Shown: positions 1,802-12,483 of the stretch, piece after piece
How positions within the stretch are numbered: position 1 is the stretch's first letter
How the letters are laid out: each line of letters starts with the position of its first letter
Assembly: GCA_005116775.1 (NCBI GenBank)
Contig: SWDN01000003.1
Coordinates: 182,742 to 220,190, forward strand
Source of the DNA: Nitrospira sp.
GTDB lineage: Bacteria > Nitrospirota > Nitrospiria > Nitrospirales > Nitrospiraceae
DNA length: 37,449 bases
Direction of reading: 5' to 3'
Position numbers and translations under genes: made by a program
Notes under the pieces: model-generated
The model's input: the letters and a program-made list of their open reading frames with translations, nothing else
The model's database searches: none
What the model was told of the DNA's origin: nothing

Positions 1802-2953
1802 CTAAGAGTTGGATCGGTCGGTTGGAGTAGTCGCCATTGCCATGGCAGGAAGAGACGCCTTGCATTCCTGGACCATGTGCGAAAAGAGTTCGGTCAAATT
1901 CTTCTCGAAGTGGGTGCCTGCATATTTCAGCATCTCTCGACAAGCATCATCGATCGAGAGGGGGGTCCGACCGGGACGTTCAGCAGTGAGATGGTCAAAC
2001 GTTTGAGCCAGACAGACAATGCGGGCGAGTTGAGGAATTCCCTCTTCCTTAAGTCCAAATGGGTACCCTGCTCCATCCCATCGTTCATGATGATAGGCAA
2101 TGATCTGCCCCACCTCAGCCGAAAGTTTTAACGGTAATACGAGTTTCGAGCCCTGCTCCGGGTGGTTCCGATTGCCGACAGCCTCTCCGGTTACCGTGAT
2201 TTCATCATCGGCAAATTGATAGGGTTCTGGCCCGATTTTGCCGATGTCATGGAGGAACGCTCCCAATGCCAGCGATTTCTGCTCCGCGAGGGTTAAGTCG
2301 ATGCGGTTACCCAAGAGGGTGGCGTAGAAACTGACTCGGCTGCAGTGGTTGAGCAGTTGGCGGTCTTTCGCTTCGAGCAGGTCCGAGAACAGAGGAAGTA
2401 GATCTGGAAGGGAATCTGACTTTCCCTCATGGCCTAACGTCGATTTTCCGATCGCGTGATAGCCTGCAATCAGTTCACTCCAAGCTTGCGCGCATTCTGT
2501 TTCTGAGCCCCAGAGACCAGTCGATGTCCCAATAAAATGTCTCAGGAAATCGAGCCGCTGCTTTTTCTCAAGCGTCTGGTTGACGAGGGAAAGCAATTCC
2601 GTGACATTGAAGGGTTTGAGTAGGTAGCCAGCGGCGCCATGGCGTATGCCTTCCATGGCAGATTTCAAGCTGCCGTATCCGGTGATGATGATGACCTCGA
2701 CATCGGCATGGTGATGCTTGATGTCCTGAAGGAGATCAAGACCCTGACGATCTGGCAGTTTCTGGTCGAGTGTGATGAGATCAATGTGGCGTGAATTGAG
2801 CACATCAATCGCTGCGCTGGCTGATTCTGCCGCCTGGATATTGAAAAATGGGCGGAGAATCACTTTCAGAGCATCACGAGGTCCTGCTTCGTCATCAACG
2901 ACAAGCAAGGTTGGCTTATGCTTCACCGGCTCAGAAGTTACGGGTACATTCAT
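1802..2953 (-). CDS. response regulator with HD-GYP phosphodiesterase domain
   Basis: This is a two-domain response regulator predicted to hydrolyse cyclic di-GMP under phosphorelay control. Residues 14-130 form a receiver with the acidic pair D20-D21, phospho-acceptor D63 (in TLDQKLPD) and the lysine of LKPF at 113. Residues about 195-345 form an HD-GYP domain with H203, the HD pair H235-D236 in FLHDIGKIG, and the diagnostic HHERWDGAGYP at 288-298, so catalysis should be intact. The ATG at 2953 is preferred to a TTG 36 bases upstream because AGAGGA sits just ahead of it; this gives 383 residues. It is the last gene of the minus-strand signalling block, about 200 bp after the sigma-54 regulator gene. 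Its PilZ-bearing neighbour suggests a shared c-di-GMP circuit, which is inference. Confidence 0.92.
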   Translation of the reverse strand: MNVPVTSEPVKHKPTLLVVDDEAGPRDALKVILRPFFNIQAAESASAAIDVLNSRHIDLITLDQKLPDRQGLDLLQDIKHHHADVEVIIITGYGSLKSAMEGIRHGAAGYLLKPFNVTELLSLVNQTLEKKQRLDFLRHFIGTSTGLWGSETECAQAWSELIAGYHAIGKSTLGHEGKSDSLPDLLPLFSDLLEAKDRQLLNHCSRVSFYATLLGNRIDLTLAEQKSLALGAFLHDIGKIGPEPYQFADDEITVTGEAVGNRNHPEQGSKLVLPLKLSAEVGQIIAYHHERWDGAGYPFGLKEEGIPQLARIVCLAQTFDHLTAERPGRTPLSIDDACREMLKYAGTHFEKNLTELFSHMVQECKASLPAMAMATTPTDRSNS

Positions 2954-3154
2954 CGGGTGTCCTCTACCGCTAACTACGTACACTGGCAAGCAATTCTTAT
3001 TCCATTTCAGCTGGTTAGCTCAGTCTGTCAATGGAGAGTAGTGTGTGTGTGTTGAAGCCCATATGTAGTTTTATTGAACGAAACACTACGTATAGCGACA
3101 GGGTTTTCACACACTAAACTGTGCAGAAATGACGCAGTGAAGGGCGTTGTTGTG

Positions 3155-4582
3155 CTATTCCTGCACTATAGCTGGAGGCTCGGTACTGACTTCCTGATCG
3201 GGTCGGCCGATTCCCAATGTGTCCATACGATATTTGAGCATGCGGCGGCTGATTCCCAGGAGGTTAGCGGCATGGGTTTGGATGTAGTTCGTTCGTTTGA
3301 GGGCATCCAAGATGATCTCTCGTTCGAATTCCATGACAGCTTTTTCGAGCGACAGCCTCCCCGCGAGGGTGTCGTCGCGGAGTGAAGAGGAGCGGGAGTC
3401 GTTCTTAAGAATGTTCGGCAGGTGTTCGGGGGTAATGGCGTCCGATCCCTTCGACCAAATAAACGCCTGTTCAATGATGTTCTCCATTTCTCGCACATTG
3501 CCAGGCCAGGGATAGCGAGAGAGAAGATCAACCGCGTCTTTGGAGAATTCCTGTGGTGGACGGCTCTCTTCTTCGATTCGTTTAGCCAGAAAATGCTTGG
3601 CAAGGAGAGGAACGTCTTCGCCTCGCTCGCGAAGTGGAGGCAAGTACAGCGCGATGACGTTAATGCGGTAGTAGAGGTCTTCACGGAATTGCCCTTTGCG
3701 AACGAGTTCTTCGAGATTTTTGTTCGTTGCCGCGACGATACGCACATCCACCTTGATAGATTGCACCCCACCGACTCTGGTAAATTCTCGCTCCTGCAAG
3801 ATGCGCAGGAGTTTAGCTTGCGTCATTGCGCTGAGGTCGCCGATTTCGTCAAGGAACAACGTGCCGTTATTGGCGAGCTCGAATTGCCCGACTCGTCGAG
3901 CTGTGGCATCGGTGAATGAGCCTTTTTCATGGCCGAATAGCTCACTCTCTATGAGAGTTTCAGGAATAGCTGCGCAGTTCAGCGCGATGAAAGGGCGTTC
4001 GCGCCTGCCGCTGTTGAAGTGAAGGGCTTTGGCAACCAGTTCCTTCCCTGTTCCGCTCTCGCCGGTGATCAGGACAGTCGTGCGACTGTCGGCGACCTGT
4101 TCGATCTTGTTATAAATATCCTGCATCGACGGGCTCTTGCCGATGAGGTTGTGAAAGGCGTAACGCCGAACGACCTGCGCACGGAGTTGTTTCACCTCTC
4201 GTTGGAGTTCCTGGTTTTTGAGTGCCTGTTCGACGATGATGCGAAGCTCTTCCACGTCGAAGGGTTTCGACAGATAGTCGGCCGCGCCGAACTTCATCGC
4301 ATCGACGGCGGTTTTGACGGATTTCGTTCCGGTCAGCATAATGACCGGCGTTGTGCGGTCTTCGACTCGAAGGGTTTGGAGGACTGAAAGCCCGTCGGTG
4401 CCGGGCAAAATCACGTCTAAAAGGACCAGATGGGGGGCTTCTTTCTTAAACAGCTCAAGGCCTTCCTCCGCATCAGCTGCTTGGATCGTTTCGTAGGTCG
4501 GTTCCAGCACTGCCTTCAAGGAGGCTCGAACCCGGGCCTCATCGTCGATCAGCAGCACTCGTTTTTTCATACTGTTGTCCAT
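3155..4582 (-). CDS. NtrC-family sigma-54 response regulator
   Basis: This is a bacterial enhancer-binding protein that activates sigma-54 RNA polymerase. It has a receiver at residues 7-125 (phospho-site D56, lysine in SKPF at 106), a AAA+ domain at about 145-375 with Walker A GESGTGKE (174-181) and Walker B LFLDEIGD (242-249), and a C-terminal Fis-type helix-turn-helix (HAANLLGISRRMLKYR). The sigma-54 contact loop, normally GAFTGA, reads GSFTDA (221-226). The Phe-Thr core is kept and two positions differ. The start chosen is the ATG at 4582, 13 bp after the kinase stop; a second ATG four codons later is also possible. Tight spacing to the histidine kinase gene marks them as a cognate pair. 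No sigma-54 promoter was recognised nearby, so its targets are unknown. Confidence 0.95.
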   Translation of the reverse strand: MDNSMKKRVLLIDDEARVRASLKAVLEPTYETIQAADAEEGLELFKKEAPHLVLLDVILPGTDGLSVLQTLRVEDRTTPVIMLTGTKSVKTAVDAMKFGAADYLSKPFDVEELRIIVEQALKNQELQREVKQLRAQVVRRYAFHNLIGKSPSMQDIYNKIEQVADSRTTVLITGESGTGKELVAKALHFNSGRRERPFIALNCAAIPETLIESELFGHEKGSFTDATARRVGQFELANNGTLFLDEIGDLSAMTQAKLLRILQEREFTRVGGVQSIKVDVRIVAATNKNLEELVRKGQFREDLYYRINVIALYLPPLRERGEDVPLLAKHFLAKRIEEESRPPQEFSKDAVDLLSRYPWPGNVREMENIIEQAFIWSKGSDAITPEHLPNILKNDSRSSSLRDDTLAGRLSLEKAVMEFEREIILDALKRTNYIQTHAANLLGISRRMLKYRMDTLGIGRPDQEVSTEPPAIVQE

Positions 4583-4595
4583 AGGGTGTTGGTGG

Positions 4596-5918
4596 TTATG
4601 CAGGTAATGCGGGCAGATCGACGAAAAATGTGGTGCCGACACCCACTGAGCTCTTGACCCGGATTTCTCCGTGATGCTCTTGAATGATTTGATGCACGAT
4701 TGTCAGGCCGAGTCCCGTTCCTTCGTGTTCCCCGCTCTCGTGTTTTGTCGTGAAAAATGGGTCGAAAATGTGTTCGAGATTCGCCTCCTGAATTCCCGTA
4801 CCCGAATCCTCGATTTCGATGTGAGCGAAGACATTGCCTCTCGATTTTTCCAGCCTGCAGGTCTGAACGCGTAAACGTCCGCCAGATCCTATCATCGAGT
4901 CCACGGCATTGAGGAGGAGATTGAGCAGGACTTGCTTGATTTGCTGCCGGTCCAACATGACACGAGGGAGGTCTTCCGCCAACTCTTTTTCAATCTTGAT
5001 CCCATGGCTGCCCGCCTTGACATCGATGAAGTATAAGCATGAGGCAACAATGTCGTTGAGGTCTTCGTCTGTCAACTTGGGTTCCATGTATCGGGCGTAG
5101 TCGAGAATTTCTTGAATCAGCCGTTCGATTCGATACACATCGTCGAGCACCACTTTGCTGAACTCCTGAATAAACTGAGGATCGTCTTTTCGTTGAGGCG
5201 CTAATTGAATAAAGGTTTTAATCGAGGTGAGGGGGTTTCTGATTTCATGGGCGAAACCGCCGGCGATCGTCTCAAGAGATTTCAGCCGATCCGTGCGTTT
5301 GATGAGCGTGTGGGAGCGCCGGAGGTCCTCGTTCAGCACAATGGTATCGAGTGCATTCGCGGAGACTTGTGCCAGAGCGGCAAGTACGGACCTGGTTAAG
5401 ACCGTATCTCCAGCGATAGACATCGCTCCGCCGAGGATTGAAAACGCGATGAGACGGCCTTGAATGAGGTGTGGTACGAGTTGTGTCGCCTGCATCGCTT
5501 TCATGGCCGCGCGTGCGCCGGTTTCAGAGTCAATTTCCTGGAGGTCTTCAGTCGAGTCGATGTCCATCATGATTCGGTTGGTTGCAAGGAGATGGTGGGG
5601 CAGAGGATGGTTCATGGTCAATGTGGGCGGAGTACAGGTCGAGGCGATCAGACCAACCATGCTGACTCGGCGATAGCATTCGTGCTCACGGTCCAGCAGG
5701 AACAGCGCCCCATGAGTGGCCGAGGCTGCGCGACAGAGTTCCTGGAGAATGCGATCTCCGAGCGTCGGCAGGTCGGTCATTGCCCCCAGGTCGATTGTAA
5801 ACTGTGTGACGATGTTCAATAGCTCGCTGGAGGAAGGCGCCAAGAAATCAGTGTTCGTTGGATGTGATGGCATAACAAACAGGGCGTCGCGGGGGCCTTG
5901 TGGCACTTCCGCGGACAT
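4596..5918 (-). CDS. cytosolic sensor histidine kinase (GAF-HisKA-HATPase)
   Basis: The product (440 residues) is a histidine kinase with no transmembrane segment, so it should sense a cytoplasmic signal. Residues about 35-200 look like a GAF domain. The dimerisation helix carries phospho-accepting H224 in FAHEIRNPLTS. The ATPase has the N box around LLNLLLNAVD (331-340), G1 DSGTGI (371-376), the F box FDPFFTTK and G2 GTGLGL (400-405). All motifs needed for activity are present. The ATG at 5918 has a weak GAGAA site ahead; an ATG 15 codons later is an alternative. It lies between the giant PilZ protein gene (68 bp upstream) and the NtrC-type regulator it probably phosphorylates. The ligand cannot be read from sequence. 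Confidence 0.94.
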   Translation of the reverse strand: MSAEVPQGPRDALFVMPSHPTNTDFLAPSSSELLNIVTQFTIDLGAMTDLPTLGDRILQELCRAASATHGALFLLDREHECYRRVSMVGLIASTCTPPTLTMNHPLPHHLLATNRIMMDIDSTEDLQEIDSETGARAAMKAMQATQLVPHLIQGRLIAFSILGGAMSIAGDTVLTRSVLAALAQVSANALDTIVLNEDLRRSHTLIKRTDRLKSLETIAGGFAHEIRNPLTSIKTFIQLAPQRKDDPQFIQEFSKVVLDDVYRIERLIQEILDYARYMEPKLTDEDLNDIVASCLYFIDVKAGSHGIKIEKELAEDLPRVMLDRQQIKQVLLNLLLNAVDSMIGSGGRLRVQTCRLEKSRGNVFAHIEIEDSGTGIQEANLEHIFDPFFTTKHESGEHEGTGLGLTIVHQIIQEHHGEIRVKSSVGVGTTFFVDLPALPA

Positions 5919-5986: not shown

Positions 5987-8900
5987 TCAGCCAGCGGATT
6001 TGCTTTTTTCAATGACGGCAATGAAAGCATGCCCATCAAGTGCCGGAAGGATGCGCGGTGTGAGGATGCCGGCTTGCTGGAACAGCGACGTCAGCATAGG
6101 TTGGCTGAAGGTGTGCAGTAATCCATGTCGGATCGACTCCCGGAGTCGTCCCAGGTAGTGCAGGACGATGTGCGCGTGCGGGCTAAATTCATCCTGACTC
6201 GCTTTGCGCAGATGTTTTCGATAGAGCACCGACAAATCGGTATCTGGATGGAAAACTGTAAGGATGAGACGACCCTGTGGATGGAGTATGCGGTACAGGT
6301 CCCGAATCGTGACGAGTGGAGAAGGGACGAACGGAAGCGCCAGATTGCAGACGATGCGATGGATAGAGTGGTCCTTGAAGGGAAGTCGCTGCGTCCAATC
6401 AGCCTGCACCCATTCGGTGGTCATGGGAGGATAGCTTGCGAGGGCGCCTGCGAAGTCGTTGTCGATCTCTCGATGCAAAGCACGAAGACTTTGCCGAGCG
6501 TGCGTCAGCGCGTCGTATGAACTCTCCAGTCCGACCGCATGAACGGGACGCTCCGGGCTCCATCCATGCTGTCGTGTGCGGTATGCCAGGTTGACCATTG
6601 TGGCTCGGAGTAAATCGCCGTGGCCGACTCCCACGTCTACGAGCACCGAGTCTGGTTCGAGAGGGCTGAGCAGCCGGTAGAGATCGTCCAAGAGCTTCCA
6701 GTACTCATGCAGGTTCCCCAATTGAGGAACCTGCTGTAGGTGCGCGAATCTCATAGCCTCACGCGTGAACTGCGAGAGATTGTGGCGAAGACGGGTACGC
6801 TCCATTTCGTTGCGTTGTTGACGGGCGAGCAGGTGACGGGTCTGGGCGTGGAATTGAGCGGGAATCGTCGGCAGCAGAACAGTTGAGGCGATCTGTCCCA
6901 GGATTTGCCGGAAGGCCTGCGGGTGTGTCTCGTCGAGCGGGAGTTCCTGGCCGATCAACGGCGCGGGGACAGTTGCCAAACTGGTATGGGTTCCCAGCGC
7001 AGTGAGAAATGCCTGAGGAAGATCTGCGGGGGGCCATGGCCCGAGGGGGCTATTGGGAATCGTAAGAATGGCAGTCGGAGCGTGAAGAAGGCGTAAGTCT
7101 ACGAGTGTGGACGTCAGATCGGTCAATTGGCCTGCGACGAGGTCCCCGAGAAAACGATCGACGTTGACAATGAGCCCGAGCAGATTGGCGATGCCGAAAC
7201 GGAGACCGAATCGGTGGTCGGCCACGAGGTCGTGGCCATGGATCGTTGTGAGCAAGGCCTGAATATCGACGACGGGATTGATGAGGAGTAGCAAGTCGAG
7301 GGGGCGTGAGTGCACAGCCATTTTGATGGCGACGCGCGCAGTCAGGTCGCTTGCCATGACGATGAGGGGAGCGGTTGGCCATGTATCGTGCACAAACTCC
7401 ACAACTTTCGTAAGGTCCGCTTGCATACTCCGTAAGGTCGTCTGCTCAACCTCGCCGTCACTCAACCCTACATGGTTGCTATGGTCGTATCGTAAGATAC
7501 GGAGCCGATGCTGAGCGAGATAGTACGACAGCACACTGGCATCCAACGCAGTTTGGCCATAGCCAGGAGCGATGATGACGACCGGCGTGTTCGGTGCGAG
7601 CGATTGGCGAAGATGATCGTCCGTAATGACGATTGTCTGGCCGCGTGGATTGCGACATTCTCGCGGGATACTGACGATCGATGTCTGCTGTAAGGAGCCC
7701 TCAGATTCATCCGTGGACGTCAGATATTGTTGGATGATACGGCTCACTTCGCGCTCTGCATAGGGCGTGAGGCCATGAAAACTAAGGCCGATTTGAATTT
7801 CTGGATCAAGGTCTTGGTCTCGAAATTTTCTTGCCGCTGTGGGGTTCGGAGCCGACCAGACGATCTGGGCAGCGAGTACGGAATCCGGCGCGCCCGGTTC
7901 ATGGGTTCCAGGATGTTTCTGAGTTTGTGTGGTAGTGAAATGCAGCATGGCGATACCGCTCAGGAGTTCGAGGCGAGCATCGAGGTGAAGACAGGCGCCA
8001 CCGCGACTGAGGTTCACGATACGCGCGTCGAAGCGATGCCTGTTTCCGGCAGGATCTGTGATGTCGAGTCGAACTGGAAGTTGCAAATCCACACGGACGG
8101 ATTCACGGGGGTCGTATTCTTTCTGTTCGCGTACAAGGGGAGGCGTGATCGTAGCCGGCTCGATGTGCGGTTCTGCTGCCAGCAGTATCTCAATGGAAAA
8201 AGACAAGTCCTGCTCCTGTGCAGCCTGCACGAACGAAGCGAGGACGGCAGCTTCTTCTTGCTTGGGTTGAACGAATATCACAACGAGATGGGAGGCCGGC
8301 TTCCAGGTTCCGACAGGGAACGAGATGGGTCGATCCTGTGCCGTGCCTTGCAGCTCCAGTATTCCCACGGCAGTTTTCATCACAACATAGGTGTCTTGTG
8401 GCACTAGCGTAGGGAAGTTATTGGGCAGTGTAATGCAGGCGCCTCCTAGACTGAGGTTTGTAATGGCGCCATCCCACGTTGTTGAACCGACGGTGATCGT
8501 GGCGGGCAGGGTGGTGAGCACTCGATGCGAATGGCGTCGTTCCGATTGCGGTCTGCCAGACATGGTTGAGGAAATAGAGGTCGTCGTGTCGATCTTGGAT
8601 GCAGGAGTCGGTGTGAGCGAGGTATCAGAGGGAGCAAGAGGTTGCGAACGTATCTCTGTCAGACTCCGAGAAGAGACCGGCAGACGGAGGGTTATACGAA
8701 GGGGGCCTTGCATCGGCGCCGACACATCTAACGCTCCTCCCAGTTGACGGACGATCTGGTAGGACTTGATGAGATCAGTAGACTGGAATGCAGTCGCTGG
8801 AGGTTCTGACAACCTCTCCTTATCTGATTCCAGTAGCTCGATTTCGACTTCGGTGGGCGGGTCAAGTAGAAAAAGCACAGGGTCATCTGCTGAGACAGAA

Positions 8901-10180
8901 GGAGATCCCACTGCGCGGGTGCTCACGATGAGTCGATGCGCGCGGCCGACTGTCAGTAAATGGGTCTGCGCATAGTTCAGGAGTTGCTGAATGAGCTTCG
9001 TGACCTGTTCGTGATCTCCAATGAGAGGAGGAAGAGTTGAAGAGAGCTGCCGAATAATGCCGGCCGCCTCCATAATGCTCGGAGAATAGGATGTGAGTAC
9101 GGCGTCGAGGATGTCGTTGATTGTGCGTCCCGTGGCAGCACGTTCTTTTTCCTGGAGAGCCTGCGCCAGTTGTTCTCCGAGTTTCGTCGCTTCTGCGGCG
9201 TAGCCGGCGAGTGTTTCGGTTTGACGCTCCAGATGTGCGTCGCGAATCGTGGTGAGGAGTTGCTGAGACTGTGTCAACAGTGAGGCCAATGGATCGCAGA
9301 GCTGTTGGGACAATAGCGTGACTCGTTGGGGCATCGCATGAAGCTCATCTGTGCGACGGAGTTGCTGATGCAGTTGAAGGATCGTGGTGTCTTGCTGTTT
9401 GGATTGGGAAAGGTCTCGAATGAGTCCTACTGTGCCGAGAAATCGCCGAACGGTGTCATAGAGGCCTCTGGCGCTGACCTCTGCCACGATCGTCAGCGGC
9501 TGATTGGCCTGCCGGAGCTTCCCTCGTAAGGTCAATTCAATGCGGCTGGCGCTCCGTGCTCCTGAACGGCGTTCGTTGAGGCAAAATCGCGCCGCTGTTT
9601 CCTGGCCGGGTGGAACGAGGGTGGTATAGGGCAGTCCGATCAGTTCATCCGACGAATAACCCAATAGCGTGGCGATGCCGGAGCTGACTGTGACGAAGCA
9701 GCCGTCGGCATCCAGTTCGTAGACGATGTCGCTGAGTAATTCAACGAGCCGATGGTGGCGTTCACGTTCCTGGTTCAGGGAGGCTCTCAGCTGGCAGGTG
9801 TCGATGGTTTGCCTGGCACAGAACAGGAGCTCCGTGAGAAAGGCCGGAGATCGCGTTGAGAGGAAAAAATCCACGTCGGCTTGGAGTGCGTCAATCGCCG
9901 CAGCTGAATCGGTGCGATCGCTGAGAAGAATAATTCCCGCATAAGGCGCGCGTTGTTTGAGTTCGTCGGGGAGGGAGGTACGGTCTTCAGCGAGGCACTG
10001 TTCGTCGATGAGGATCATGGTCCACTCATGCGGCGACGACCATGCACGGGCTTCTTCGGTTGAATAGGCCACGTCGACGCGGCAGCCCGAAAAGAATCCG
10101 CGCAAGCTGAGGGTGATGAGTTTAATGGATTCAGCGTGTTCGCTGATAATCAGGATCGTGACTGGCTCACTCCGCGGCAT
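5987..10180 (-). CDS. receiver-PAS-kinase-like-PilZ-PilZ-LuxD-like-methyltransferase fusion
   Basis: This is a single 1397-residue reading frame without breaks. Domains in order: receiver-like (7-128; aspartate D59 present, usual acidic pair and lysine missing); PAS (about 138-256); a histidine-kinase-like region (265-500) lacking a phospho-accepting H box and the G1/G2 ATP motifs; Ser/Thr-rich linker; PilZ 1 (548-665) with RxxxR at 549-553 and NLSLGG at 575-580; PilZ 2 (690-820) with RxxxR at 692-696 and NLSRGG at 723-728; an alpha/beta-hydrolase resembling bioluminescence acyl-transferase LuxD (838-1105; RYD...HVGLSDGE at 897-910); and a class I SAM-methyltransferase (1160-1390) with motif I VDVGVGHGD at 1181-1189. 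Both PilZ domains keep their c-di-GMP motifs. The LuxD nucleophile position appears to be Asp945. It heads the block containing the kinase and regulator genes. No function is assigned; the architecture suggests a c-di-GMP-controlled acyl or methyl chemistry. Confidence 0.88.
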   Translation of the reverse strand: MPRSEPVTILIISEHAESIKLITLSLRGFFSGCRVDVAYSTEEARAWSSPHEWTMILIDEQCLAEDRTSLPDELKQRAPYAGIILLSDRTDSAAAIDALQADVDFFLSTRSPAFLTELLFCARQTIDTCQLRASLNQERERHHRLVELLSDIVYELDADGCFVTVSSGIATLLGYSSDELIGLPYTTLVPPGQETAARFCLNERRSGARSASRIELTLRGKLRQANQPLTIVAEVSARGLYDTVRRFLGTVGLIRDLSQSKQQDTTILQLHQQLRRTDELHAMPQRVTLLSQQLCDPLASLLTQSQQLLTTIRDAHLERQTETLAGYAAEATKLGEQLAQALQEKERAATGRTINDILDAVLTSYSPSIMEAAGIIRQLSSTLPPLIGDHEQVTKLIQQLLNYAQTHLLTVGRAHRLIVSTRAVGSPSVSADDPVLFLLDPPTEVEIELLESDKERLSEPPATAFQSTDLIKSYQIVRQLGGALDVSAPMQGPLRITLRLPVSSRSLTEIRSQPLAPSDTSLTPTPASKIDTTTSISSTMSGRPQSERRHSHRVLTTLPATITVGSTTWDGAITNLSLGGACITLPNNFPTLVPQDTYVVMKTAVGILELQGTAQDRPISFPVGTWKPASHLVVIFVQPKQEEAAVLASFVQAAQEQDLSFSIEILLAAEPHIEPATITPPLVREQKEYDPRESVRVDLQLPVRLDITDPAGNRHRFDARIVNLSRGGACLHLDARLELLSGIAMLHFTTTQTQKHPGTHEPGAPDSVLAAQIVWSAPNPTAARKFRDQDLDPEIQIGLSFHGLTPYAEREVSRIIQQYLTSTDESEGSLQQTSIVSIPRECRNPRGQTIVITDDHLRQSLAPNTPVVIIAPGYGQTALDASVLSYYLAQHRLRILRYDHSNHVGLSDGEVEQTTLRSMQADLTKVVEFVHDTWPTAPLIVMASDLTARVAIKMAVHSRPLDLLLLINPVVDIQALLTTIHGHDLVADHRFGLRFGIANLLGLIVNVDRFLGDLVAGQLTDLTSTLVDLRLLHAPTAILTIPNSPLGPWPPADLPQAFLTALGTHTSLATVPAPLIGQELPLDETHPQAFRQILGQIASTVLLPTIPAQFHAQTRHLLARQQRNEMERTRLRHNLSQFTREAMRFAHLQQVPQLGNLHEYWKLLDDLYRLLSPLEPDSVLVDVGVGHGDLLRATMVNLAYRTRQHGWSPERPVHAVGLESSYDALTHARQSLRALHREIDNDFAGALASYPPMTTEWVQADWTQRLPFKDHSIHRIVCNLALPFVPSPLVTIRDLYRILHPQGRLILTVFHPDTDLSVLYRKHLRKASQDEFSPHAHIVLHYLGRLRESIRHGLLHTFSQPMLTSLFQQAGILTPRILPALDGHAFIAVIEKSKSAG

Positions 10181-10519: not shown

Positions 10520-11524
10520 CTACTTGAGCGCAACCGGTGAAGGAGATGTTGCTGGACAGGCGCCAGGAGTCATGTACAGCAAGTAGTTTCCCATCCCATG
10601 TTGGGCTTCCTTTTTCTGTAAGGGATGGTGGTGGACCATGACCATTTCATAGTCATCCGCTTTCGTTACAGGAAATCCTTGACCGTCTTGATAGACCTGG
10701 TGTGGTTGAAACTGAAGAAAGGTGCCGTCCTGATCGACATCCGGAACCGTCCGTAGCAAAGTCTGGTTCTTGGTTTTATTGTCCAGCGCGACCATTAACA
10801 GTTCGTCATGCCCATGGGGGTAGGCGAATTTGACACAGCCATCCATTGAGAACTTGAGCGGCTCCCGGTGGACCTGGACGCCTGAGTTGATCTCGATCCC
10901 TTCATCCGTTTGGTTTGAGCCTCGCTGGGCGAACTTGCTGAAGCACACAATGTTGACGCCGACCTGGTACACGTCCATTTCTTTGACGGGCGTACCCTCC
11001 GGCGCCATGTACATGGTGAAGGTGGCCATGACATCTTTGGTGACCGGCGCCTTATGGTAAAACGCGACGATCGACATGAGGTGGTCGCTCTTGGCGAGCT
11101 TCACTCCATAGCCTGCCGGGAAACGTGTCTCGGTCATTTCCAGACCGGCTCCTGCAAAGAACAGCGGCTCTCCATCACATGAGACGCTGGGCTTGCTGTT
11201 GTTGAGCATGAGAATGTGATGGAGATAGTTTTTAGGGAGGGGTTTTCCTTCCTTGGTGAAAACCGCAGTCTTGTATCCCACCATGTACATATCTTTGGGA
11301 AGTTGAAAACTATGTTTGGGCATTGAGGCGGCCAGGTCTCCCTCGTGAGCAGCAGGGAGGTCGATGGGGCCGAATGTCAGGGTCACGATATTGTCTTGAA
11401 ATGTGACCGAGGTGGCCGTTTGATTCTTGAGCGAGGGGACTGCATGGTGATCGTGACCGCCGTCTGCCAAGGCAGGTGTGACCAGACCGATGCTGGCGAG
11501 CAGAACGAGGAATAGCTGGCGCAT
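10520..11524 (-). CDS. exported protein with PHM/DBH-like copper monooxygenase pattern
   Basis: The ATG at 11524 follows a strong GGGAGG site and gives 334 residues with a signal peptide (cleavage likely after ALA at 18-20) and then a His-rich DGGHDHH mature end. The rest is beta-rich. It carries, in order and spacing, residues matching the two copper sites of peptidylglycine and dopamine beta-monooxygenases: a His-His pair (H102-H103 in YLHHILML), a later single His (H157), an H-x-H (H237, H239 in YPHGHDEL) and a C-terminal Met (M311 in HGMGNYLLYM, resembling the EMCxxY segment of those enzymes). A periplasmic or secreted type II copper enzyme is therefore suggested; the substrate is unknown. 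This rests on motif reading from memory. It follows the SnoaL-like gene by 77 bp, so they are probably one operon. It could instead be a non-catalytic copper-binding protein. Confidence 0.6.
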   Translation of the reverse strand: MRQLFLVLLASIGLVTPALADGGHDHHAVPSLKNQTATSVTFQDNIVTLTFGPIDLPAAHEGDLAASMPKHSFQLPKDMYMVGYKTAVFTKEGKPLPKNYLHHILMLNNSKPSVSCDGEPLFFAGAGLEMTETRFPAGYGVKLAKSDHLMSIVAFYHKAPVTKDVMATFTMYMAPEGTPVKEMDVYQVGVNIVCFSKFAQRGSNQTDEGIEINSGVQVHREPLKFSMDGCVKFAYPHGHDELLMVALDNKTKNQTLLRTVPDVDQDGTFLQFQPHQVYQDGQGFPVTKADDYEMVMVHHHPLQKKEAQHGMGNYLLYMTPGACPATSPSPVALK

Positions 11525-11601
11525 AGAACCTCCCAAAGATAAATATCGGTCACGCGAGTCATTGGATCGCTGATCGTATAGGTCTGTGTGATATGCAGCT
11601 G

Positions 11602-12483
11602 TCATCGTGTAGATGGCGGGGGGGGCAACCGTTTCCAGAGATAGGTTCCGCCATGCTCTCGAGGAGGAATATTCTTTTGGCTGCCGACGCGTGAGTACCA
11701 CCACACGCCTTTAGCCTGAGCGCCATCCTCGGAGAGGAGGAGTTCGAATCCTCCTTCGCGATCATTACCTGGCTGTTGCCAGGTGCCTTGCCAGAGGCGG
11801 TCGGCGAACTTCGTCGTCACGAACCGTCCGCCGTGCTGGGTATAGGGGCCGTTGCCGGCTTTGTCGAGGGTCGCCTTGTAGCTCTTGTCGTCTTCAACTT
11901 CGAGAATGTCCCATTCCCCGCTCAGGTCTGTGGTAGTCGGCAACTGTGCATTGCCAACCAAGTGTTGCGGAGAGACAGTTGTGGGGCGTTGAGCCACAGG
12001 GGCTCCGAGCTGCATGTTCCTGAGTGACTCATGCCAAGACAGCAGAACCCATCGCCCTTCGCGTTGTTCCAGCACACCGCTTTCCCTTAGCGGTAGCACC
12101 ATTTTTCGTTGATTCGGTCCTTCTCCCACATAACGGATGTAGTCCAGCTCCATCGTAAACCAGGCCACCGGTCCTTTCGTCCAGACCTTGAGCTCGGTAA
12201 TAGGTATCTCAAGTTTGGCCACGGAGGAAAACTCCTCCTGCATGTCATGCTCGAACTCAGGCCACCCCACATACTTTCGTCCCCCGATGGTGTAGCTAGT
12301 GATATCGGCGTCATGCGCCATGAAACGAGAAATGGTCGGCATGTCTAACTCGGCGTTGGCACGAACCAGAGTGCGGATCACGGCCTCAGGACCGGCCGAT
12401 TCATGAGCGAAACCAACGGCCGCATGGTTGGTCATCGAGAGCAATACGGCAGCGAACAGGGCACCGCGAACAATGCCAAGCAT
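11602..12483 (-). CDS. exported SnoaL/NTF2-like protein
   Basis: This 293-residue protein has an N-terminal signal peptide (about residues 1-26) and then an NTF2/SnoaL-type alpha-beta cone (about 30-155), recognisable from the helix-rich start (GPEAVIRTLVRANAELDMPTI) followed by strands with WFTMELDYIRYVG and the W-x-LLSWHES ending. A second beta-rich part (about 185-290, starting DLSGEWDILEVEDDKS) looks like a lipocalin-like sandwich of unknown family. SnoaL-type folds bind small hydrophobic molecules or add to enzymes, so no activity can be given. ATG at 12483 has GAGG at good distance. A TTGACA box upstream marks it as first gene of the unit with the PHM-like gene. Confidence 0.75.
   Translation of the reverse strand: MLGIVRGALFAAVLLSMTNHAAVGFAHESAGPEAVIRTLVRANAELDMPTISRFMAHDADITSYTIGGRKYVGWPEFEHDMQEEFSSVAKLEIPITELKVWTKGPVAWFTMELDYIRYVGEGPNQRKMVLPLRESGVLEQREGRWVLLSWHESLRNMQLGAPVAQRPTTVSPQHLVGNAQLPTTTDLSGEWDILEVEDDKSYKATLDKAGNGPYTQHGGRFVTTKFADRLWQGTWQQPGNDREGGFELLLSEDGAQAKGVWWYSRVGSQKNIPPREHGGTYLWKRLPPPPSTR

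Follow-up and report, generated by a model that had tools for sequence, protein, structure and literature searches.

The 37,449-nucleotide stretch of Nitrospira sp. DNA analyzed here (the window; assembly GCA_005116775.1, contig SWDN01000003.1, positions 182,742 to 220,190 of the forward strand) carries a gene that joins sensory and PilZ domains to two enzyme-type domains in a single polypeptide. The gene (5987..10180) is an open frame of 1397 codons on the minus strand, read from an ATG start at 10180 down to 5987; the plus strand across the same positions is packed with stop codons. A first-pass annotation had reported this uninterrupted frame, naming no strand, and it was borne out, as was the claimed order of receiver, PAS, kinase-like, two PilZ, LuxD-like, and methyltransferase domains, which Pfam matches and predicted folds support. 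Nor did a literature search find any paper describing such an architecture, in agreement with the same annotation. The gene and its parts, given in amino acids (aa) of the protein, are as follows:

5987..10180, minus strand: 1397-aa fusion gene, REC-PAS-HKlike-PilZ-PilZ-LuxDlike-methyltransferase (open frame, Pfam, orthologues)
9806..10159, minus strand: degenerate receiver, aa 8-125 (weak Pfam match, alignments)
9395..9763, minus strand: PAS domain, aa 140-262 (Pfam, fold)
8636..9343, minus strand: histidine-kinase-like region, aa 280-515 (alignment, fold comparison)
8231..8545, minus strand: PilZ 1, aa 546-650, with RxxxR at 549-553 and NxSxxG (Pfam, alignments)
7721..8122, minus strand: PilZ 2, aa 687-820 (Pfam, alignments)
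6851..7678, minus strand: LuxD-type alpha/beta hydrolase domain, aa 835-1110, catalytic triad lost (Pfam, alignments, fold)
7346..7348, minus strand: codon of Asp945, at the position of the LuxD nucleophile Ser114 (HMMER alignment to 1THT)
6005..6733, minus strand: class I S-adenosylmethionine (SAM) methyltransferase domain, aa 1150-1392, motif I DVGVGHG kept (Pfam, alignment, fold)

The fusion was confirmed as a real conserved protein, and as neither a chance frame nor an assembly artefact, because an orthologue without internal stops occurred in 19 of the 24 other genomes of the genus and the surrounding gene order is conserved. Fourteen of these orthologues were complete (57-73% identity, BLAST), the remaining five being cut or split in draft contigs; the relatives come mostly from metagenome-assembled genomes, and the window genome itself is 70% complete. 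The probability that a frameshift or misassembly joined separate genes is therefore negligible. Separable modules were seen in two relatives, but full-length orthologues within and beyond the genus, complete genomes among them, share the domain order without stops and rule this origin out. The possibility that orthologues would encode the last two domains as separate genes, raised by the first-pass annotation, found no counterpart either, the LuxD-like and methyltransferase domains being joined in every core homologue examined. The separable modules concern locus L145, where a methyltransferase is present without a LuxD-like domain, and L041, where REC-PAS-PilZ (450 aa) is separate from PilZ-LuxD-methyltransferase (1062 aa).

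The AlphaFold model of the LuxD-methyltransferase core (residues 833-1397) was confident (predicted local distance difference test, pLDDT, 88.6; predicted template modeling score, pTM, 0.88). Its nearest solved structure was the LuxD thioesterase of Vibrio harveyi (1THT; E 1e-12), a myristoyl-acyl carrier protein (ACP) thioesterase according to the title of that entry, followed by lipases, esterases, and SAM methyltransferases such as Coq5. Pfam matches above cutoff were obtained for LuxD-type Acyl_transf_2 (PF02273; aa 865-984, 1.5e-11) and Methyltransf_23/11 (aa 1163-1371, about 3e-7). The presence of two enzyme-type domains, as first proposed, thus stands as far as folds and Pfam are concerned, but in the LuxD-like part the catalytic Ser, acid, and His are all gone: Asp945 takes the place of the nucleophile, and the acid and His positions are filled by variable residues in both the window protein and the long orthologues. 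This replacement of Ser by Asp, with loss of the acid and His, holds across the members of ~1400 aa; exceptions in the nucleophile residue are L059 and the related 1196-aa L144, both with Gly, and there too the triad is lost. In both sequence and fold, the hydrolase domain matches LuxD (PF02273, 1THT) best, and shorter relatives of the window protein hold Ser-Asp-His in LuxD-like motifs; unlike LuxD, the domain is fused to methyltransferase and PilZ domains, has no lux genes nearby, and lacks the triad in the window clade. Against the NCBIfam LuxD equivalog, the window protein scored 43.2 bits, below the 420-bit cutoff, and the triad-intact relative L140 scored 106.9 bits. Within the genus, the LuxD-type domain is the most conserved part of the protein (identity 0.79; ratio of nonsynonymous to synonymous substitution rates, dN/dS, 0.13), whereas dN/dS is 0.14 in the methyltransferase, lies at 0.21-0.27 in the sensory and PilZ domains, and reaches 0.83 in a linker. 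Since the catalytic residues were lost while purifying selection is strong, this indicates, at the level of sequence, a retained non-catalytic role for the LuxD-type domain.

With a shorter relative as query, the LuxD-methyltransferase core was retrieved from 93 of the 396 genomes of the phylum, and strong core matches in a pattern scan across the entire genome collection were confined to Nitrospirota and one bin labeled Nitrospinota. The core homologue of that bin (L033) is 69% identical to a Nitrospirae one, the bin being likely mislabeled or the gene transferred; 299 genomes from the phylum to which L106 (Phenylobacterium) belongs yielded just two LuxD-like single-domain matches. In the shorter members of the family (547 to 1280 aa), the Ser-Asp-His triad is intact and the number of PilZ domains varies from zero to several, the minimal form being a 547-aa LuxD-methyltransferase without PilZ (L140) beside a histidine kinase with a seven-transmembrane (7TM) N-terminus. 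One genus (g11) holds both a triad-intact and a long member. When the tree was rooted with the intact homologues that are most distant, the long forms were nested within a grade of intact ones and grouped together (support 80; one branch is very long), and a single triad loss was sufficient (support 93). A first tree had placed 36 long members in one clade (support 100).

The state of the triad goes together with the type of partner kinase. Of the 50 loci in which the triad is intact and a kinase partner could be read, 48 encode a kinase whose N-terminus is 7TM (PF16927 in the kinases run through Pfam), either in the next gene or, in L043, within the same protein. A partner could be read in 40 long-form loci, and in every one of them the kinase lacks the 7TM part; L089 and L095, which belong to these 40, also show weak internal kinase similarity, their next gene encoding a soluble kinase. 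No separate kinase gene occurs in L059, L144, L160, and L084. In L025 and L052, the nucleophile is Asn and the 7TM kinase is kept, with a PilZ-KAS III gene in between that has the active-site Cys, His, and Asn. Such a PilZ-KAS III (FabH-like) gene also lies directly before the 7TM kinase in L145, L158, and L159, whereas a KAS III match in L041 turned out to be merely PilZ similarity. The PilZ-KAS III fusion genes with Cys-His-Asn present are:

L145:5936-7498: PilZ-KAS III fusion
L025:5162-6757: PilZ-KAS III fusion
L158:154-1749: PilZ-KAS III fusion
L159:8622-10160: PilZ-KAS III fusion

Because either an intact LuxD-methyltransferase or a PilZ-KAS III protein adjoins them, the 7TM kinases seen in these loci are, judging from the residues present, neighbors of an acyl-chain enzyme with intact catalytic residues. 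Two further fusions were found. A single 1641-aa protein (L043:5887-10809) consists of PilZ-PilZ-LuxD-methyltransferase joined to a 7TM-GAF histidine kinase. In Nitrospira moscoviensis (L084:3439-8547; NZ_CP011801), a 1703-aa fusion continues into the sigma-54 AAA+ and helix-turn-helix part of an NtrC-type regulator, this part being 87.7% identical to the window regulator, and the kinase gene and the receiver domain of the regulator are absent. By their domain composition, these two fusions tie the family to two-component signaling.

In the N-terminal half, Pfam recognized PAS (aa 143-256, 8.7e-9) and two PilZ stretches (6.5e-16) above cutoff, and the receiver below it (1.9e-5). Alignments showed that the acidic pair of the receiver is reduced to S13-E14, that Asp59 is retained, and that Lys109 is replaced by Thr in the window. 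The kinase-like stretch gave no Pfam HisKA or HATPase match, its predicted fold being similar to PAS-HK; its H-box position is Gln, Arg, or Glu in the aligned orthologues, the phospho-acceptor His being absent. It aligns with a recognizable kinase inside L059 (L059:3508-7812), a long-form relative of the same architecture in which the H-box His is present and no separate kinase gene follows. The motifs for cyclic di-GMP (c-di-GMP) binding, RxxxR and NxSxxG, were found in both PilZ copies, as previously claimed. The PilZ 2 residues R692, R696, N723, S725, and G728 were invariant across 18 long members, and the Ser of the PilZ 1 motif was replaced by Gly in L019 and L022. The PilZ pair is thus most likely a c-di-GMP reader, as predicted from its motifs.

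Downstream of the fusion, the following genes are encoded:

4596..5918, minus strand: soluble GAF-type histidine kinase, H-box and HATPase present (alignment to the 7TM kinases of relatives)
3155..4642, minus strand: NtrC/AtoC-type sigma-54 response regulator (profile scores)
1802..2989, minus strand: REC-HD-GYP response regulator, predicted c-di-GMP phosphodiesterase (domain matches)

The gap between the fusion and the kinase is 68 bases, and the kinase and regulator genes overlap. The window kinase aligns to the GAF-HisKA-HATPase portion of the 7TM kinases, the membrane part being absent. No PF16927 protein was seen in the window genome, an absence that is provisional given its 70% completeness. 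Many loci share the gene order RNaseH-like, PP2C, two conserved genes, fusion, kinase, NtrC-type regulator, REC-HD-GYP, recN. Upstream of the fusion, the genes at 10520-11704 (minus strand; no Pfam match, 62-93% identical) and 11602-12483 (minus strand; SnoaL-like) are conserved in place in many loci as well. A sigma-54 promoter scan of the window gave 11 matches versus 17.7 expected, which is not above chance.

Several known systems resemble parts of this arrangement. In diffusible signal factor (DSF) signaling, an acyl-chain enzyme (RpfF), a sensor kinase (RpfC), and a REC-HD-GYP c-di-GMP phosphodiesterase (RpfG) are encoded together, as in the window; however, RpfF is a crotonase, the membrane part of the Rpf kinase is different, and a sigma-54 NtrC-type regulator lies in between in the window system. 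YcgR-type effectors likewise couple PilZ domains with RxxxR and NxSxxG motifs to other domains, but the window PilZ domains are not flagellar and are coupled to enzyme-derived and two-component modules. A parallel in gene arrangement is PhcB/PhcS, the 3-OH MAME/PAME (3-hydroxymyristic and 3-hydroxypalmitic acid methyl ester) quorum sensing system, in which the genes for a methyltransferase and a sensor histidine kinase are neighbors within a regulatory operon, the methyltransferase making methyl 3-hydroxymyristate that is sensed by PhcS (PMC8578825). No fusion of PhcB to LuxD or PilZ domains is described, and Phc signaling acts through PhcA instead of NtrC/HD-GYP. The pairing of a putative synthase, its catalytic residues intact, with a membrane-receptor kinase is found in the shorter relatives (the 48 of 50 loci mentioned above) but not in the window, where the triad is lost and the kinase is soluble.

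It appears moderately probable that the window protein integrates signals as a pseudoenzyme and is derived from an acyl/methyl signal synthase encoded beside a receptor kinase. The ancestor would have combined a LuxD-type acyltransferase/thioesterase with a SAM methyltransferase, its gene lying immediately ahead of that for a 7TM receptor histidine kinase; by analogy, its product was probably a small acylated or methyl-ester signal to which that kinase responded. A LuxD-like myristoyl-ACP thioesterase step would be a fitting prelude to methylation, and PilZ domains, where present, would have let c-di-GMP gate the enzyme. In the Nitrospira lineage, the acyl triad would then have been lost, the kinase would have shed its 7TM receptor, and REC-PAS-HK modules would have been added. 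As triad and 7TM part were lost but the PilZ motifs, LuxD fold, and gene set were kept, the present protein is most likely a c-di-GMP-responsive kinase regulator. It most likely senses c-di-GMP via its PilZ pair, perhaps with an acyl-type ligand bound in the retained LuxD pocket, and would regulate the adjacent soluble kinase, the NtrC-type sigma-54 regulator, and the REC-HD-GYP protein, forming a loop with the HD-GYP phosphodiesterase. The sequences themselves show the architecture, the conservation, the loss of the triad, the switch of partner kinase, and the gene order; signal chemistry, c-di-GMP binding, and kinase control were deduced.

Several observations weigh against this interpretation. 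The N-terminal model (832 residues; receiver, PAS, kinase-like, and two PilZ folds) had a low overall confidence (pLDDT 73, pTM 0.31), so that the domain arrangement is uncertain. With motif I of the methyltransferase preserved in the window, the protein may have kept some activity. The kinases of the other two of the 50 intact-triad loci (L141 and L142, both very distant) have no PF16927 match, although hydropathy suggests several membrane helices, and L069, with an intact triad, has no adjacent kinase. Loss of the triad and loss of the 7TM part constitute one independent contrast on the tree, and no statistical coupling is claimed for this reason. Adjacency and co-loss could also reflect another enzyme-kinase relation, and signal production by family members is itself a deduction.

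Alternatively, the protein may have remained an enzyme, namely a c-di-GMP-gated SAM methyltransferase whose hydrolase domain merely holds the substrate. The retained DxGxGxG, within a domain assigned to Rossmann-type class I by Pfam, alignment, and fold, its low dN/dS, and its fold match to SAM-bound Coq5 are in line with this. Catalysis does not look like a conserved trait, however: many orthologues carry Gly in place of the motif II acid, and a damaged motif I occurs in L019/L064 as well as in the N. defluvii-like clade (third Gly to His), where Arg also replaces the post-motif acid, which makes this alternative doubtful. Direct coupling of c-di-GMP to acyl chemistry, as originally suggested, finds no support, the triad being lost, and coupling to methyl chemistry may apply given the retained motif. 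A new hydrolase activity, with Asp945 as nucleophile as in haloalkane dehalogenases and epoxide hydrolases, is highly improbable. The Asp is kept in long members down to ~30% identity, within the best conserved of all domains, but Asp-nucleophile enzymes require a catalytic His and acid, and both positions are lost or variable here.

A further alternative considers the operon as a Nitrospirota branch of PrsK/PrsR, which controls PEP-CTERM/exopolysaccharide genes; the LuxD-methyltransferase would then modify a lipid or polysaccharide intermediate, with no diffusible signal involved. PrsK is a named membrane kinase that matches the 7TM kinases of the family beyond the catalytic part, its system includes a sigma-54 response regulator, and its stimulus has been described as obscure (PMC1569441). 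The 7TM kinase of L028 resembles TIGR02916 PrsK (131 bits) and the window regulator TIGR02915 PrsR (437 bits), but both scores are under the family cutoffs (300 and 502 bits, respectively), AtoC outscores PrsR for the regulator (520), and no exosortase or PEP-CTERM gene was seen beside the operon, the genome as a whole not having been searched for one. This alternative is considered unlikely, yet a serious competitor of the main interpretation.

Returning to the pseudoenzyme-type integrator, the triad-intact relatives beside 7TM kinases point to a putative, undescribed lipid-type signaling system under c-di-GMP control. A broader proposal, which is possible but tentative, is that Nitrospirota possess an undescribed cell-cell signaling family, with c-di-GMP-gated LuxD-methyltransferase or PilZ-KAS III synthases, an acyl or fatty-acid methyl-ester signal, and dedicated 7TM receptor kinases, the synthase having evolved in Nitrospira into a pseudoenzyme that acts as an intracellular receptor and integrates c-di-GMP with an acyl ligand. 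In wastewater, soil, and water, Nitrospira are the main nitrite oxidizers, growing in flocs and biofilms. If the interpretation is true, the window protein would be a signal synthase turned pseudoenzyme regulator, its partner kinase having lost its membrane receptor, and the shorter relatives would offer a testable lipid-type signaling pathway in the Nitrospira group, with c-di-GMP control built into the enzyme, as well as a clue to the stimulus of the PF16927 7TM kinases found in this group.

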